A DNA stretch of 25,059 nt from a virus. This document shows positions 5,331 through 16,491 of this stretch, one piece after another (within the stretch, counting starts at the first letter, position 1; each line of letters begins with the position of its first letter). The DNA lies in IMG/VR virus record IMGVR_UViG_3300029994_000019, positions 1-25,059 of that record, one strand, 5' to 3'. The notes under the pieces are model-generated. The model did not search any database and was not told the DNA's origin. It worked only from the letters and a program-made list of their open reading frames with translations. The translations under genes and the position numbers were made by a program.

Positions 5331-7304
5331 ATGGCAATCTGGGATCAATGGCTTAAAAATAGAATACAGGGACAAATAGACGATCTCATCAAAGCCGACG
5401 TGGGCGAAACAGAACCATCGTCTCCTCCAGCCGTTGGCGACATCGCAGATGGCGATACTTTACCAGATGTACCAGAAGCCGACCATGATGCCTCAGGTCA
5501 GATCGGACGCAAAGCGTTCGTAGATGATCCTTACTTTGACTTGATGGGAAGTCAAGTAAATTACAAATTTAAACTTACGCGAATCTCCAATAAGACTTTA
5601 AAAGAAGTCTCAGTTCGAGATTGGTTGATATCAGCAATCATTCAATGTCGCGTAGATACACTTTTAAGATTCTCCCGCATCGAGCACCGTCGTCATGAGA
5701 TGGGTTTTCGTATTGTTAAGAAAGACGGAGAAGCGCATTACACAGACGCAGAGAAGGATGAGATTGCGGCAATCGAAGATTTCATCTATCACTGCGGTCG
5801 TAAAGAAGGCACTCCAGCAGACGATAAGAGATTGTTCGGCGAGTTCCTCAAGCTTGTAGGCCGCGACGCATTGACGTTCGGTCACGTAGCTATTGAAAAA
5901 GTTAAGACACGTGCCGGTGGATTGCACCGTTTCCGCCCACTTCCAGGTGAATCAATGTACCTAGTCAACAAGGCTCTCTCTAAAGAGCAGTTGAATTCTA
6001 GTGCAATGAAGAACTATCAACTAACTAAACCTAAGAGTAACAACGATCCGAAAGCTGATCAAGTTATTAATGAAGCAGAGAATGACTACATCAAATATGT
6101 TCAGATCTCTTATGACAACAGACCTCTAGCTACATTCGGCGACGAAGACTGTATCTTCAAACTATTTAATCCTCAGAACTTTGCAGACTCTATGGGTTAC
6201 TGCTACTCTCCGTTAGAGTTGGCGATCATCAACATTACCAACCATATGAACGTAGAGAACTACAATGCTAACTTCTTTACTCATGGTTATGCTGCACGAG
6301 GCGTTCTTCACTTAAAGGGAACAGTAACTCAACAGAACTTAGCTAACTTTCGTAGAACTTTCTATAACTCTATTTCAGGAACTCAGAATGCTTGGAGAAC
6401 TCCAATCGTTGCAGGTCTTGATGAAGTTCAATGGGTACCGATGTCTGCAAATGCCCGTGAGATGGAGTATTTGAACTACAACAACCATTTGATGCGTATT
6501 CTTTGCGCTCAGTTCCAAATTGATCCAGTGGAATTAGGATTAGATTACCTTATCTCTGCAACTGGACGCTCTCCGATGCAGCAAGCTAACAATGAGTATA
6601 AGATCACCTACTCACGTGAGCGTGGTTTAGTGCCTTTGCTCATGTTCATTGAAGATATCATTAACTGCGATGTTCTTACTGCATTAGATAAAGATTTAGC
6701 AGCTAAATATAAGTTCGTATTCACCGGCATGACTGACGAGACTCCTCAAAACGAGATCGCTCAGATGCAAGCTGAGATGACTGTATGGAAGTCAATGAAT
6801 GAACTTCTAGTACAGGCTCAAAAGAACAAGATTACAGAAAAGATTGCCGACGTTCCGATGAACCAAGCTTTCTGGGCGCTCGTTGAGAAGAATTACACCC
6901 GTGGAGAGATTCGCGAGAACTTCTTTGGTGACAAGGGTGCATCTGAAAGACGCGAACTGCAATACATTCCTGGCGATCCATCGTTCTTGAACTGGAATCA
7001 ATTCCTTTTCACCATGGACGCTCAGAAGAAGCAAGAAGCTCAGATGAAAGAGCAGCAAGAAGCTCAGCAAGGCGAAGCTCAGATGAAGATGGCCCAAGAA
7101 CAGCAGAAGCATGAACATGCGGAAGCTGCTCACGGTCGTGATAAAGAGAAGCATGATCTTGAGATGGAGCAAATCAAGGCTAAAGCAGCCCACGACGTTG
7201 TTCAACCTAGTGTAAAGGACACCGCTAAGCAATTTGGCGCTACTAAGTCTGAAAACATCGGCGGAGTTCCAGTCGCCAACCCTATTAACAAATTAGGCCA
7301 GTAA
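5331..7304 (+). CDS. portal protein
   Basis: At 657 residues, directly after the terminase module, this is the expected position and size of a portal. Sequence features fit: an Asp/Glu/Pro-rich N-terminus; a long alpha/beta body with FFTHGYAARGVLHLKG near 330, and PIVAGLDEVQWVPMSANARE, then FQIDPVELGLDY, a pattern seen in portal proteins of HK97/T4-like phages. The C-terminal ~110 residues are highly charged and helical, with many Gln, Lys and Glu (MKEQQEAQQGEAQMKMAQEQ onward). It would form the dodecameric vertex through which DNA enters and leaves and to which terminase docks. The ribosome site is weak because the HNH gene ends three bases upstream, so translation may depend on coupling. 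Confidence 0.85.
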   Translation: MAIWDQWLKNRIQGQIDDLIKADVGETEPSSPPAVGDIADGDTLPDVPEADHDASGQIGRKAFVDDPYFDLMGSQVNYKFKLTRISNKTLKEVSVRDWLISAIIQCRVDTLLRFSRIEHRRHEMGFRIVKKDGEAHYTDAEKDEIAAIEDFIYHCGRKEGTPADDKRLFGEFLKLVGRDALTFGHVAIEKVKTRAGGLHRFRPLPGESMYLVNKALSKEQLNSSAMKNYQLTKPKSNNDPKADQVINEAENDYIKYVQISYDNRPLATFGDEDCIFKLFNPQNFADSMGYCYSPLELAIINITNHMNVENYNANFFTHGYAARGVLHLKGTVTQQNLANFRRTFYNSISGTQNAWRTPIVAGLDEVQWVPMSANAREMEYLNYNNHLMRILCAQFQIDPVELGLDYLISATGRSPMQQANNEYKITYSRERGLVPLLMFIEDIINCDVLTALDKDLAAKYKFVFTGMTDETPQNEIAQMQAEMTVWKSMNELLVQAQKNKITEKIADVPMNQAFWALVEKNYTRGEIRENFFGDKGASERRELQYIPGDPSFLNWNQFLFTMDAQKKQEAQMKEQQEAQQGEAQMKMAQEQQKHEHAEAAHGRDKEKHDLEMEQIKAKAAHDVVQPSVKDTAKQFGATKSENIGGVPVANPINKLGQ

Positions 7305-9976: not shown

Positions 9977-11608
9977 ATGTCAAAGAAACCACTTGAGATC
10001 GATATGTGTGCAGGTTCCCAACTTAGGGACACCCAGGGAGAGATGCTCTCTGTAGAGGGAGCCGACATCGGTGAACTCGAAGCAGGCAAGGGCCGCATCA
10101 ACGACAACCACGGTAAAGGTTTCTTCAATTCAATCGGCCGCGTCACTTCAGCTAAGAAGATCTTTAAGGCAGAAGATTGCGACAACGACCGTCAAAAATA
10201 CTATTGGGATAAAGTTAAGGCTCCGTACGTGTATGTTCGTGCAACCTTGTACGACGACGAGGACCACCCAAACGCCAAAGCCGCAGCTGCAATTCTGCGT
10301 AACGTTCATAAAACTGACTGTCCTTTAAAATTGAAAGCGTCAGTAGAAGGCGGAGTAGTTTCACGTGGGATCTCAGACCCGACTCTCCTCGCAAGGACAA
10401 AGATTCATTCTGTTGCACTAACTTTTACTCCTGCCAATACGGCCACTCTAGTTGAGCCACTAAACTTAGATAAATCGCAGCACGATGAGGAATCCGATAT
10501 GGAACTCATCAAATCTGTTATACACCTTGCAGAAACGAACGTACCTTCATTCCGTCATATCGCTCGTGATGCCTCAGCGTCTAGGGTGCGCTCTAACATC
10601 GAGAAGATCGTAGAGTTGATGAAGGGCGATAAAACTATTGATATCCCTACTAAGCAAGAGATACTTCAATACGCTCTTGAGTGCAAGATTCAAAACAATG
10701 TAGCGAAAATTCACGAACTAGTCGAAGCTTCCTCTGAAGAGCTTGAAAAAGACATGAAGAGTAAGTTGGCTGGTGCCGCAATGATGGGTGCTGCCGCTTT
10801 AGCACCAAATACTGCTCAAGCTCCACAAGCTCCAAAAACAGCAATGAGTCAACCGGCCACAAATCTATCTAGAATGCCTTTAGAGCATCAGAATGCATAC
10901 AAGGAGTTCTCTCACAAGAATCCTCTTCTAGGCGCGATCGGGATGGTTGAGTCAAGCGGTGGATTGAATTACGATCACAAGCCTTTAAAGAACGGTCACA
11001 GAGCTGGTGGAATGTTTGGAATGCTGCCTACTGCAGCTGAATATACACTAAGAACTAATCCAGAGCTTGCTAAGAAATACGGCGACATGGCCGAATACTC
11101 TAAAGATTTAAATAAGAATCACGCCAAAATTACAGAGCGTTTCAACAATGATCCTCAAGCTGCCTATGATTTCGCAGATGCATTGTTAAAGAGAAACAAG
11201 TCAAAAACTAAAGATATCAATATGTTAGTGCATTCTTGGACTAACGGTTTGAAGGGAACTTGGGACAAATATAAAGGCGAAGGTCCTCAAGGTATTCAAG
11301 ATTCTGACTACGTGAAAAAAGTTATGACCGAATACGGCAAGTTGCATCCTAAAAAGGCGGCAAAGCCAACTAAGTCAATTAAGAAGGCCCTAACTGCGGG
11401 TTACGGTGGAGCTGGTTCTCCAACAGGTAATACCGGAGGCGGAGTACTACAATCTGAGTCGCTGGATGTAGGAAATGGTAAGGGTTTCAAGTATGTTACA
11501 TGCGATGACTGCGGCACTGAGCAGATATACTCTAAATTTCAGGTGAAATGTAGAGATTGCGGTAAATCATTCCCTTTGGAGAAGTTACACAAGTTGTTTC
11601 TTAGGTAA
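9977..11608 (+). CDS. prohead protease fused to a lytic-transglycosylase-like domain, capsid-like peptide and zinc ribbon
   Basis: Four parts are visible in 543 residues. (1) Residues 1-~165 resemble a prohead serine protease: NDNHGKGF (H45), KASVEGGVVSRG (S122) and IHSVALTFTPAN (H144) give a plausible H-S-H set. (2) After a helical stretch and an Ala/Met-rich hydrophobic run (~263-280), residues ~300-425 look like a lytic transglycosylase: GMVESSGG with E325, then AGGMFGMLPTAAEY and a late SWTNGL. (3) Residues 470-497, starting KALTAGYGGAGSPT, repeat the capsid protein N-terminal region (21 of 28 identical). (4) C509-x2-C512 and C525-x2-C528 form a zinc ribbon. Phage head proteases cleave scaffold and capsid; self-processing that frees the hydrolase is inference. 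The start is fixed by the upstream in-frame stop at 9953. Confidence 0.8.
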   Translation: MSKKPLEIDMCAGSQLRDTQGEMLSVEGADIGELEAGKGRINDNHGKGFFNSIGRVTSAKKIFKAEDCDNDRQKYYWDKVKAPYVYVRATLYDDEDHPNAKAAAAILRNVHKTDCPLKLKASVEGGVVSRGISDPTLLARTKIHSVALTFTPANTATLVEPLNLDKSQHDEESDMELIKSVIHLAETNVPSFRHIARDASASRVRSNIEKIVELMKGDKTIDIPTKQEILQYALECKIQNNVAKIHELVEASSEELEKDMKSKLAGAAMMGAAALAPNTAQAPQAPKTAMSQPATNLSRMPLEHQNAYKEFSHKNPLLGAIGMVESSGGLNYDHKPLKNGHRAGGMFGMLPTAAEYTLRTNPELAKKYGDMAEYSKDLNKNHAKITERFNNDPQAAYDFADALLKRNKSKTKDINMLVHSWTNGLKGTWDKYKGEGPQGIQDSDYVKKVMTEYGKLHPKKAAKPTKSIKKALTAGYGGAGSPTGNTGGGVLQSESLDVGNGKGFKYVTCDDCGTEQIYSKFQVKCRDCGKSFPLEKLHKLFLR

Positions 11609-11660
11609 ACTTCATAGGTAATGTATAGGTGTATGCCGGGCCGGTTTAAGTAATGGGCCA

Positions 11661-11705
11661 TGGTATATTAAGTAATATCAAGTTTTAACTATAGTAGTTA
11701 AGGAG
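11661..11705 (+). promoter_or_regulatory. candidate promoter and leader hairpin of the capsid cluster
   Basis: This is part of the 104-base space between protease and the next gene. TGGTATATT at 11661-11669 resembles the extended -10 elements elsewhere. Downstream, TTAACT (11685-11690) can pair with AGTTAA (11696-11701), forming a six-base stem whose 3' arm touches the AGGAG ribosome site (11701-11705). The hairpin could modulate translation. No strong terminator is visible between the protease stop and this element. Confidence 0.45.
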
Positions 11706-11712
11706 AACTAAA

Positions 11713-12135
11713 ATGGCAAATATTAATTCAATCATGGCAAAAGTAGCCCGTAACGCTCAAACTATCGGTTTGACTGTTGCTTCACAAACTGCTACTACTG
11801 TCGTAATTCAAGACGGTGGAGCAACCCTTACCGTTGGTTACGCTCTAGCATCAATCCAACTTCCACAAGGTGGAGTTGATCCAACTGTGTCGCCTTTCCT
11901 TGGAATCGGCATCGCAAATCCAGGACAACTTACCCTTACTTCTAGCAATTCAGGCGGAACAGTAGCTGACGTTATCGACAGCGCAACTGCTGCTCAAGTG
12001 TTAGCAATGTTAGCGTGGTTCGCAAATGACATCATCCTCGCGGATGCAACAACTCCAATCACCACTACAAACGGCTATGCTCAAGGTATTGCACGTATCC
12101 GTGGCGATTCAGACATGATCAACATTGGACAGTAA
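11713..12135 (+). CDS. probable head-associated structural protein, function unknown
   Basis: The 140-residue protein has an AGGAG ribosome site seven bases before ATG. It is rich in Ala, Thr, Gly, Ile and Val with alternating beta-type stretches (SQTATTVVIQDGGATLTVGY, then GQLTLTSSNSGGTVADVIDS) and few charges. That composition fits a small virion or decoration-type protein. Its position between protease and scaffold/capsid genes supports a head role. There is no signal peptide or catalytic motif. The C-terminal part carries an IARIRGDSDMINIGQ end. Assignment as a structural protein is inference from composition and neighbourhood. Confidence 0.6.
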   Translation: MANINSIMAKVARNAQTIGLTVASQTATTVVIQDGGATLTVGYALASIQLPQGGVDPTVSPFLGIGIANPGQLTLTSSNSGGTVADVIDSATAAQVLAMLAWFANDIILADATTPITTTNGYAQGIARIRGDSDMINIGQ

Positions 12136-12163
12136 TTGACCGATTGATTAACGAGGAGTTAAC

Positions 12164-12952
12164 ATGAAAGACGAATTAAGAAAAAGCTTAACAGACCTGA
12201 TCGATGAAACTCTCCATGAATTGGAAGAGCTTCAAAAGTCACGTTTTGCAGCTTCAGAAATCGACATTAAGGGACCAGGCGAAGGAATCGCTGGCAAACC
12301 TACTAATGGCGATCTTCATGCAAAAGCTGAAGATAAAGACGAAGATAAAGACGAAGATAAAGACGAAGACGACAAAGACGAGAAGGCTGAAAAAGCTGAA
12401 GGTCAGAACCGTCAAGCAGATCCAGATGGTGGACACCACAAGATGGACAAAGGCGAAGGCCAAAATCGTCAAGCTGATCCAGACGGCGGACATCACAAGA
12501 TGGACAAAGCTGAAGATAAAGACGACGACAAAGACGACAAGAAAAAAGACAAAGACGCTAAAGGCGGCGACGAGCACGAGAAGAAAGAAAAAGACGCTAT
12601 CGGCAAACTCGCTAACTTGGCAGGCATGAAAAAGTCTCAAGAAGAGCAAGAATCGTTATTCAAAAGCATGGTTGAAGAGAGAGTAAGACCTCTTGAAGAC
12701 AAGCTTTCAACGATCCTAAATCTTGTTAACAAGATTGCAGACCAACCAGTTCAGACTAAGGGAAGTACTTATCGTGCACAACCATTACATAAAAGTAATG
12801 ATGGTGTAGGTGAGCAGTTGTCTAAAGCTGATGTGGCTTCTAAACTATTTGACTTGAAAAAGTCAGGAACAAAAGTTGACTCTCTGGATATCACCAGGGC
12901 GGAAATGGGACACGATCTCGCAAAGATCGCAGCCAAATATAATATTTCGTAA
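12164..12952 (+). CDS. acidic repeat-containing protein, scaffold/prohead-core candidate
   Basis: The 262-residue protein lies directly before the capsid gene, the classic scaffold position. An N-terminal helix (MKDELRKSLTDLIDETLHEL) leads into a very charged, low-complexity region (~50-150) with EDKD repeats and two 19-residue repeats beginning EGQNRQADPDGGHHKMDK. A coiled-coil-like segment follows (~165-200: EEQESLFKSMVEERVRPLED) and a basic/helical end. Scaffolds are commonly helical, charged and removed by the protease. The AGGAG ribosome site (12153 on) lies between TTAAC and GTTAA arms, a possible weak hairpin. The repeats contain paired histidines, which could bind metal. Function is inferred from position and composition. 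Confidence 0.6.
   Translation: MKDELRKSLTDLIDETLHELEELQKSRFAASEIDIKGPGEGIAGKPTNGDLHAKAEDKDEDKDEDKDEDDKDEKAEKAEGQNRQADPDGGHHKMDKGEGQNRQADPDGGHHKMDKAEDKDDDKDDKKKDKDAKGGDEHEKKEKDAIGKLANLAGMKKSQEEQESLFKSMVEERVRPLEDKLSTILNLVNKIADQPVQTKGSTYRAQPLHKSNDGVGEQLSKADVASKLFDLKKSGTKVDSLDITRAEMGHDLAKIAAKYNIS
12329..12364 (+). repeat. three tandem copies of a 12-base unit encoding EDKD
   Basis: GAAGATAAAGAC is repeated three times without a change inside the scaffold candidate, followed by a degenerate fourth (GAAGACGAC). Exact identity suggests recent slippage and possible copy-number variation between isolates. Confidence 0.9.
12398..12511 (+). repeat. two tandem 57-base repeats encoding a 19-residue unit
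   Basis: Units at 12398-12454 and 12455-12511 encode EGQNRQADPDGGHHKMDK plus a variable last residue (Gly or Ala). Differences between the copies are almost all at third codon positions, so the protein sequence has been kept while the DNA drifted. Confidence 0.9.
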
Positions 12953-12970
12953 TCAAAGGGAGAAACGAAA

Positions 12971-14413
12971 ATGAATGACGCAGTAAACTCAATTTTACAA
13001 GGCCTAGATCAAGGGCTCGTCTCCGCATCGGATATCGAGTCATTGAACAAAGCTATTACAGCAGGATACGGTGGGGCTGGAAAGCCGACCGATCTAACCT
13101 ATGGTGGAGTGCTACAAGCCGAATCACTAGAGGCAACTCTTAAGTCGATCACCTTCGACATGAAGAACCTCAAGTTTTGGCCAGCTATCTCTGTAGACAA
13201 AGCTTATAACCTATTCGAACAATACAATCGTTTGATCAGTTATGGTTCTGACAGTGCTCCGTATATCGGAGAAGGTGGAGCTCCTCAAGAGGAAGATTCT
13301 ACTTACGTACGTGACGGTCAAAAGATCGTGTTCTTCGGAACTAGACGTCGTGTGTCACACCAAATGACATTAGTTCGTGTTACTGTTGGCGACATCGTTG
13401 CTCAACAAGCTAAAGAAGGTACTATGCATCTTCTTAAGAACATCGAACGTGAAATGTATTGGGGACATGCCCACTTCATGAATCAAGTAACTGGTAACGA
13501 AACCGGTTCTGATGCAGATCTTCCATCTAACAGTATCGCGATGAGCGGTTTGTTAAAACAACTTCAAAAAGGCGACACCGATGCGCAAATGCAAGCGGGT
13601 GACTTCTTAGGATATGGCGACTCTAGCTCAATCATCACTGATTTAGCTGGTCAAGTTATGGCTCAAGATGACATCGAACGTTTAGCGGTTATTGCTCTCG
13701 AAAACTTCGGTGCTCCTGATCAATTGCACATCGAACCAGCTGCTCTTTCAGCTTTCGTTAAGCAATTTTATCCTCAATTTCGTTCGGCTCCAGGCCTTGC
13801 AAATCAAACCGTTGGTTACGATGTATCTAAAGTACAAACAACTGCCGGCGCGATCGACCTTAAGCCAAACTTGTTCTTGCGTCCTCGTAGTGGCGTTCGC
13901 GCTATTGCAGTAAACGCAGCATCTCCAGCGGCTTCATTCGGAATCACTCCAACAGGAACTGGTTCTACATCAACCTTCGCAGCAGGTGTTTACCAATTGT
14001 CAGTAACAGCAGTAAACGATTCTGGTGAGTCATCTCCAGTAAACAGCACTGTAACTTTGACAGCCAATCAAAACTTACAAGTTGCGATTTCCTCTGTTCC
14101 ACCAGGCGTTAAGTATTTTAAACTTTACTTAAGTGCACCAGGCGGAGCTGCAGGTTCTCAAAAATTTGCCGGTAACTGGGCAAACCAAGGTTCAGCTAAC
14201 TATATTAGCTCGAACGTTCAATTGCCAGGTCTCGGAGAAGCATTCTTGCTTGATATGTCAGCAGAATGTATGCGTTTCAAGCAATTAGCACCATTAAGCA
14301 AGATCAACTTTGCTATCGTGACTACTGCTCTTGAGTTCGCGATCGTAATGTACGGCGCGTTGTTCGTGTATACCCCACGCTTCAACTGCTTGTTCCGCAA
14401 CATCGGAAAATAA
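12971..14413 (+). CDS. major capsid protein with Ig-like insertion
   Basis: The 480-residue protein follows protease and scaffold genes and has a ribosome site GGGAG upstream. Residues 1-~26 form a short helical N-terminus that is a likely cleaved propeptide, then KAITAGYGGAGKPT (27-40) and the conserved-looking start of the shell domain (SITFDMKNLKFWPAISVDKA). The body (~55-315) is what I expect for an HK97-fold capsid of T4-like/large phages. Residues ~316-412 look like an inserted immunoglobulin/fibronectin-like beta domain (FAAGVYQLSVTAVNDSGESS and on), after which the capsid sequence resumes (LDMSAECMRFKQLAPL to FNCLFRNIGK). The insert is probably exposed on the capsid surface. It is followed by a strong terminator. 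Capsid identity is by synteny and overall pattern, since no catalytic motif exists to check. Confidence 0.88.
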   Translation: MNDAVNSILQGLDQGLVSASDIESLNKAITAGYGGAGKPTDLTYGGVLQAESLEATLKSITFDMKNLKFWPAISVDKAYNLFEQYNRLISYGSDSAPYIGEGGAPQEEDSTYVRDGQKIVFFGTRRRVSHQMTLVRVTVGDIVAQQAKEGTMHLLKNIEREMYWGHAHFMNQVTGNETGSDADLPSNSIAMSGLLKQLQKGDTDAQMQAGDFLGYGDSSSIITDLAGQVMAQDDIERLAVIALENFGAPDQLHIEPAALSAFVKQFYPQFRSAPGLANQTVGYDVSKVQTTAGAIDLKPNLFLRPRSGVRAIAVNAASPAASFGITPTGTGSTSTFAAGVYQLSVTAVNDSGESSPVNSTVTLTANQNLQVAISSVPPGVKYFKLYLSAPGGAAGSQKFAGNWANQGSANYISSNVQLPGLGEAFLLDMSAECMRFKQLAPLSKINFAIVTTALEFAIVMYGALFVYTPRFNCLFRNIGK

Positions 14414-15822: not shown

Positions 15823-16491
15823 ATGACAGATAAAAAACGCTGTAAATACATATGTTTAGAAGGTTGCGAGGGCGTGGGCAAAACTACACAGACCCAGAAG
15901 CTAGTAGATTTCCTTAGAGCTAAAGGTTATAAGGTCCTTCAAACTAAAGAGCCGGGAACTTCCCACGCTCCACTTACATTACAGCTTCGGGCTATCATGC
16001 TCGATAATAAATACGACAAAGAATTAACAGCTCCTGCTAGAGAGTTGATTAGCCAAGCCATTAGATCTATTCACTTAGAGAAGGTAATCGTCCCTGCTAT
16101 CACCGAATATGACTATATTATTCAGGATCGCGGTATACTTTCGGGGTTAGCTTATGGATTTGCTTGCGGCAATGGAATAGATACCTTATCGATGTTGTCG
16201 GCTTATGTTACAGATAGTGCACGTCATGTATTATGTGATGGCATTTATGACAGTATAATTTATCTTAGGGGAGACACCTCCGCTGGTCTTAAAAAAGCTC
16301 TTGCTGCCAAGCAAGAATTTGAGACTGGTGACGCGATGGAATCGCGTGGTACCTCTTTCTTAGAACAGGCTTCGTCTGCTATGGACGAATTATCTAGCTC
16401 CTTTAACACTAAGAAAATCAGTGTTGACGGTAAGAGTATCGACGCGGTCTTCAGTGAAATATTGAAGACTCTTAATATAAAGGAAGAGTAA
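15823..16491 (+). CDS. tmk: thymidylate kinase (dTMP kinase)
   Basis: The 222-residue protein has the canonical dTMP-kinase motifs: P-loop LEGCEGVGKTTQ (G14-x4-G19-K20-T21), TKEPGT near 41-46 and a QDRG near 102-105 with surrounding LSGLAYGFA. It phosphorylates dTMP to dTDP in the cytoplasm for phage DNA synthesis. Length and motif spacing fit the family. The ribosome site AAAGGAAGA precedes ATG, and its stop overlaps the next gene's ATG by one base (TAATG), so it begins an operon with the exonuclease and CYTH genes. A second kinase of the same superfamily lies at 7464, with a different P-loop and an added domain. Confidence 0.88.
   Translation: MTDKKRCKYICLEGCEGVGKTTQTQKLVDFLRAKGYKVLQTKEPGTSHAPLTLQLRAIMLDNKYDKELTAPARELISQAIRSIHLEKVIVPAITEYDYIIQDRGILSGLAYGFACGNGIDTLSMLSAYVTDSARHVLCDGIYDSIIYLRGDTSAGLKKALAAKQEFETGDAMESRGTSFLEQASSAMDELSSSFNTKKISVDGKSIDAVFSEILKTLNIKEE

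Follow-up and report, generated by a model that had tools for sequence, protein, structure and literature searches.

A phage head maturation protease with a copy of the capsid protein N-arm

A shared segment in protease and capsid protein

How a destructive protease is counted into a procapsid, and kept in check until assembly is complete, is an open question for most tailed phages. We focused on a 25,059-base window, the complete IMG/VR virus record IMGVR_UViG_3300029994_000019. The window carries a large terminase, portal, protease, scaffold and major capsid protein (MCP) module. A preliminary description, made from sequence alone, proposed that the protease contains a copy of a segment close to the MCP N-terminus. 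Why would a protease carry part of the capsid protein? The relevant features are as follows.

9977-11608 (+): head maturation (prohead) protease, 543 aa
10109-10111 (+): putative catalytic His45 (NDNH)
10340-10342 (+): putative catalytic Ser122 (ASVEGG)
10874-11362 (+): variable insert, lytic-transglycosylase-like (ESSGG ... GMLP signature), replaced by other domains or absent in relatives
11384-11467 (+): copy of the MCP N-arm in the protease, residues 470-497, with a predicted cut after Lys470 (codon 11384-11386)
11468-11605 (+): C-terminal zinc ribbon (Cys509, 512, 525, 528)
12164-12952 (+): probable scaffold, acidic and lysine-rich, with K-S sites at residues 7, 25, 157, 167, 210 and 233 and no arm
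12971-14413 (+): MCP, 480 aa, SPO1/SU10 type
12971-13051 (+): predicted MCP propeptide, residues 1-27, cut after Lys27
13049-13132 (+): MCP mature N-arm, residues 27-54, the partner copy

The protease matches PHROG 1028 (head maturation protease) over residues 17-158 (E 5.8e-11). His45 and Ser122 are invariant in separate alignments of 12 and 25 homologues. The gene lies between the portal (5331-7304) and the scaffold and MCP genes. A search of the PDB with the window protease using phmmer found nothing useful. The zinc ribbon is supported by invariant cysteines in homologues and by weak Pfam matches. The insert was identified by reading the sequence. Pfam SLT matches 2 of 25 homologues, weakly (best E 0.0044), and no match was found for the insert of the window itself. 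The MCP matches PHROG 752 over residues 19-479 (E 1.5e-56) and SPO1 gp6.1 in PDB 9vel (E 5.6e-60). The scaffold is assigned by its position between protease and MCP, as for SPO1 gp3.3. A 140-aa protein of unknown family (11713-12135), between protease and scaffold, has no Pfam or PHROG match. Further along, a thymidylate-kinase-like gene (15823-16491; Pfam 1.2e-18) lies within the head/tail module. Myxococcus phage Mx1 has thymidylate synthase and dNMP kinase genes at the same place.

The observation that had prompted this work was confirmed. Protease residues 470-497 and MCP residues 27-54 are identical at 21 of 28 positions. BLASTP aligned the pair with 23 of 37 identities (E 7e-10), and the Smith-Waterman score is 15.8 sd above composition shuffles. 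Hence, a chance match was rejected. Of the 21 identical residues, 7 share the codon, against 7.7 expected from codon usage, so the synonymous sites are randomised. The preliminary description also noted that the MCP segment follows a stretch resembling a propeptide. A homologue supports this reading: the mature phage-K-type MCP chain in PDB 9row (439 aa) begins immediately after the equivalent lysine of a 463-aa precursor. Two refinements are needed. First, the segment had been placed between the hydrolase domain and a zinc ribbon, but in this window the transglycosylase-like insert also lies between the protease domain and the motif. Second, the match is not a local oddity but a feature of a large part of the SPO1-like phages.

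Distribution and co-evolution of the arm

To determine how widespread the arm is, relatives were fetched by MCP and protease searches and from annotated phages. Scans with the Mx1 and DAC16 MCPs gave no further loci. In a test that did not presume the answer, the N-terminal region of each MCP was aligned to every open frame of 60 aa or more, on both strands of its locus. The protease was the best-scoring frame in 120 of 123 non-redundant SPO1/SU10-type head loci. A strong arm (score at least 54) was present in 115 of the 120 that have separate protease and scaffold genes. A few rank-1 loci outside those 115 (L088, L091, L107, L169 and L172; L numbers denote individual head loci) score at or near the noise level and are not counted as positives. 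The positives include SPO1, Exiguobacterium, Lysinibacillus, Listeria, Staphylococcus, Enterococcus, Bastille-type Bacillus, Aerococcus, Lactobacillus, Myxococcus, Pseudomonas, Morganella and Thermus phages. The SPO1 protease gp3.2 searched against the whole PDB has one match, the SPO1 MCP (E 2.4e-6). Similarly, a Staphylococcus protease matches the phage-K-type MCP (E 9e-5). PHROG profiles also cross-match. SPO1 MCP residues 1-70 hit the protease family at 2.4e-9, and protease tails hit the MCP family at about 1e-5 to 1e-8. The shared arm explains an annotation error in Staphylococcus phage Alsa_2 (L107, 5454-5576). Here, a 40-aa ORF labelled 'head maturation protease' is in fact the MCP N-terminus, separated from the rest by a frame break, and it hits PHROG 1028 better than the MCP family.

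The arm is not universal among prohead proteases. T4 gp21/gp23, HK97 gp4/gp5, Felix O1 and Bacteroides/Chryseobacterium relatives show no similarity clearly above shuffles. Bacteroides phages DAC16/SJC03 and locus L104 have separate scaffolds and no recognisable arm in the protease, L088 lacks it and L122 has lost it. Nor is it a low-complexity or promiscuous motif. Occurrence in many unrelated non-head proteins had been named in advance as grounds for refutation; instead, each of 20 whole or near-whole genome records contains exactly two copies, in MCP and protease. In one sublineage (L009, L012, L014, L016, L017 and L023) the protease gene lies on the strand opposite to the MCP, with arm and zinc ribbon intact. 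What seemed a separate third protein on the minus strand in L009, L012, L017 and L023 turned out to be this inverted protease gene.

Arms differ strongly between lineages but match inside each genome. The arm reads TAGYGGAG.PT...GGVLQ.ESL in the clade of the window, EAG(H/Y).V(N/D)P...EGG..FR.ESL in SPO1, TTG(Y/H)G..PD.Q..AGALRRE in Listeria phages, KAMEAGNFNA.PSTL in Mx1, AGYGSDM..LSGGSA.R.QSL in Touem01 and TAGDPHALD.K.GL.GVPAIR.ESL in Thermus phage Cumys. If the copies had simply diverged after an ancient duplication, MCP arms should group with MCP arms. In a four-point comparison, 225 of 234 cross-lineage pairs instead favour the own-genome grouping. The nine exceptions are all among the Listeria/Enterococcus/Bastille/Staphylococcus/Aerococcus cluster, whose arms are alike. 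The own-pair total (1901) exceeds all 50,000 permutations (maximum 1348). Over 23 genomes, for which arms were delimited by hand around the aligned core, 388 identical residues share 179 codons against 172.6 expected. Hence, recent gene conversion is excluded and the force acts on protein. The R/Q and E/Q positions near the end of the arm switch together in the two proteins from lineage to lineage.

Limits of the shared unit

Similarity starts at a lysine and fades 27-37 residues later. Nothing upstream is shared, so the MCP propeptide was not copied. Given the start of the mature chain in PDB 9row, the shared unit is the mature N-arm with its cut site. K-S is the most over-represented dipeptide in the scaffolds (853 against 301 expected), yet scaffolds carry no arm, so cutting does not need the arm. 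The sequences are related, so these counts are not independent, but the excess appears in each of four lineage groups. The K|S/A rule therefore explains where cutting happens but not why 27-37 residues are kept. The predicted cut after Lys470 of the protease is inferred from the MCP homologue in PDB 9row and from the K-S enrichment in scaffolds.

In the clade of the window, the stretch between protease domain and arm varies from about 37 to 777 residues, and the tail after the arm is usually a zinc ribbon. The protease gene is a hotspot for domains inserted between protease and arm, or between arm and zinc ribbon. In L046, L047, L072, L080, L009 and the window these include HEAT/LRV repeats, a GNAT-like acetyltransferase and a transglycosylase-like domain; the Mx1 protease is 1240 aa. 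In an AF2 model of a minimal homologue (L082), built from only 12 sequences, the protease and zinc ribbon are folded. The arm is predicted to be disordered (pLDDT 31-39), with no docking seen. The top Foldseek matches of this model, which are weak, are herpesvirus proteases (E 2.5e-3, TM about 0.25). An AF2 model of the MCP (mean pLDDT 56) was too poor to place the arm.

Possible roles of the arm and related systems

The interpretation offered in the preliminary description was partly supported. Its view of an old, selected similarity, rather than recent duplication, is strongly supported by recurrence across lineages, covariation within genomes and saturation at synonymous sites. Of the three meanings it suggested, a shared cleavage site is supported for the lysine at the start of the arm but is insufficient. 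A decoy or tether to the capsid lattice is the best supported, although inferred. A relic of a protease-capsid fusion, broken by insertion of 11713-12952, is not supported. A separate scaffold gene lies between protease and MCP in almost all relatives, and the arm persists where the protease gene is inverted or carries hundreds of residues of insert. Moreover, two drifting relics would not track each other lineage by lineage.

We consider it somewhat more likely than not that the arm is a targeting tag made by mimicry of the capsid protein, with a self-release site. In this view, the protease arm occupies the site that normally receives an MCP N-arm, on a neighbouring MCP subunit or on the scaffold, and so places protease molecules in the immature shell. 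Once assembled, the protease would cut K|A/S sites in the MCP, the scaffold and itself. Self-cleavage at Lys470 would separate the enzyme from the docked arm and zinc ribbon. Our data establish the copy, its limits, its co-evolution at protein level and its restriction to MCP and protease. Docking, its partner, catalysis, the cut in the protease and a need for the arm in incorporation are inferences, as is removal of the MCP propeptide in this phage. Some patterns fit. Where protease and scaffold are fused in one ORF directly upstream of the MCP (L094 with relatives L179-L184; L169 and L172), the arm is reduced to a short remnant, as expected if fusion already ensures incorporation. This rests on two lineages, and the armless DAC16/SJC03 and L104 have separate scaffolds. 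Hence, the correlation is suggestive only and the arm is not indispensable in the wider family. There are precedents in the proposed targeting role of the SPN3US protease propeptide, described below, and in procapsids of 80alpha, P22 and phi29, where scaffold ends contact MCP N-arm helices (PMC12749128). Protease was detected in purified virions of three Herelleviridae-type phages, CKA15, fRuSau02 and Bc431v3 (PMC12282133, PMC5618024, PMC3601020). These reports, which do not say which part of the protease was found, are compatible with a docked fragment that stays, although the first two papers suggest residual or undissociated protein.

The chief rival, which seems unlikely but is not excluded, is an in-cis pseudosubstrate or exosite ligand. 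Here, the protease domain would recognise the arm as an extended substrate. Its own copy would occupy that exosite, keeping the enzyme inactive or timing self-cleavage before MCP cleavage. Co-evolution of the arms is equally expected, and both arms follow a K|A/S site. Conversely, recognition would have to reach more than 25 residues past the cut, and scaffolds are rich in cut sites without arms. No docking was seen in the AF2 model, subject to its low confidence, and the variable distance from protease domain to arm is awkward for a cis interaction. A plain shared cleavage site, kept only because the same protease must cut there, seems less likely still. Lysine is followed by A/S/G/T at the start of most arms in both proteins, and mature MCP starts after lysine in PDB 9row. 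However, conserved and co-varying residues extend 27-37 positions past the cut and are lacking at scaffold K-S sites. In addition, in Mecenats66, Lb338-1 and Cumys the spacing between lysine and arm core is shifted while the core is kept. An ancient duplication is the likely origin of the copy, but similarity maintained by inertia or gene conversion is very unlikely, since synonymous codons are fully randomised, inertia cannot keep two copies tracking each other through many lineages, and the arm survives when neighbouring sequence is replaced (zinc ribbon, other tails, large inserts).

A more speculative extension, unlikely on present evidence but not excluded, is that capsid-arm mimicry is the general way in which SPO1-like phages put their protease into the procapsid, and that the clade of the window uses it to carry cargo. 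The hypervariable domains between protease and arm (transglycosylase-like, GNAT, HEAT/LRV repeats) would ride into the head as inserts of the protease, be freed by K|S cuts and become internal or ejected head proteins. More broadly, the arm is a sequence-defined, co-evolving element in much-studied phages (SPO1, phage K, A511-like Listeria phages) that makes the question of protease incorporation directly testable. It also supplies a genome-internal test of MCP-protease pairing.

Targeting of prohead proteases by C-terminal propeptides is already known. Targeting with a co-evolving copy of the mature MCP arm was not found in any paper reached, although much subscription literature on SPO1, A511 and HK97 lay outside our search and earlier mention cannot be excluded. 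The head modules of SPO1 (gp3.2 protease, gp6.1 MCP) and other Herelleviridae share the gene order portal-protease-scaffold-MCP, the PHROG 1028 and 752 families and the arm copy. Their region after the arm is small, with no CxxC motif, where the clade of the window has a zinc ribbon, and they lack the large insert. In Salmonella phage SPN3US, the C-terminal propeptide of protease gp245 is removed by self-cleavage and proposed to target the protease into the prohead (PMC7411985). The arm of the window is likewise C-terminal to the protease domain and follows a predicted cleavage site (K470|A471, in the same context as the MCP site). SPN3US has a T4-like cleavage motif and a different protease and MCP family; we found no mention of MCP-arm mimicry in the text consulted. 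The T4 capsid targeting sequence (CTS) of IP and Alt proteins is also a short tag that brings proteins into the prohead and is cut off by the head protease. However, the CTS is an N-terminal propeptide on cargo proteins that binds the core and leaves. Here, the putative tag is a C-terminal copy of the mature MCP arm, ends 46 residues from the protease C-terminus and, in the 20 genome records, is shared by MCP and protease only, rather than by several internal head proteins. Finally, in herpesvirus assemblin (UL26) with its scaffold extension, and in lambda C/Nu3, the protease is brought into the procapsid by a covalent C-terminal assembly domain. The L082 model weakly resembles pUL26N. There the tag is the scaffold protein, while here it would be the arm of the capsid protein; L169, L172 and the L094 group look like the scaffold-fusion solution.
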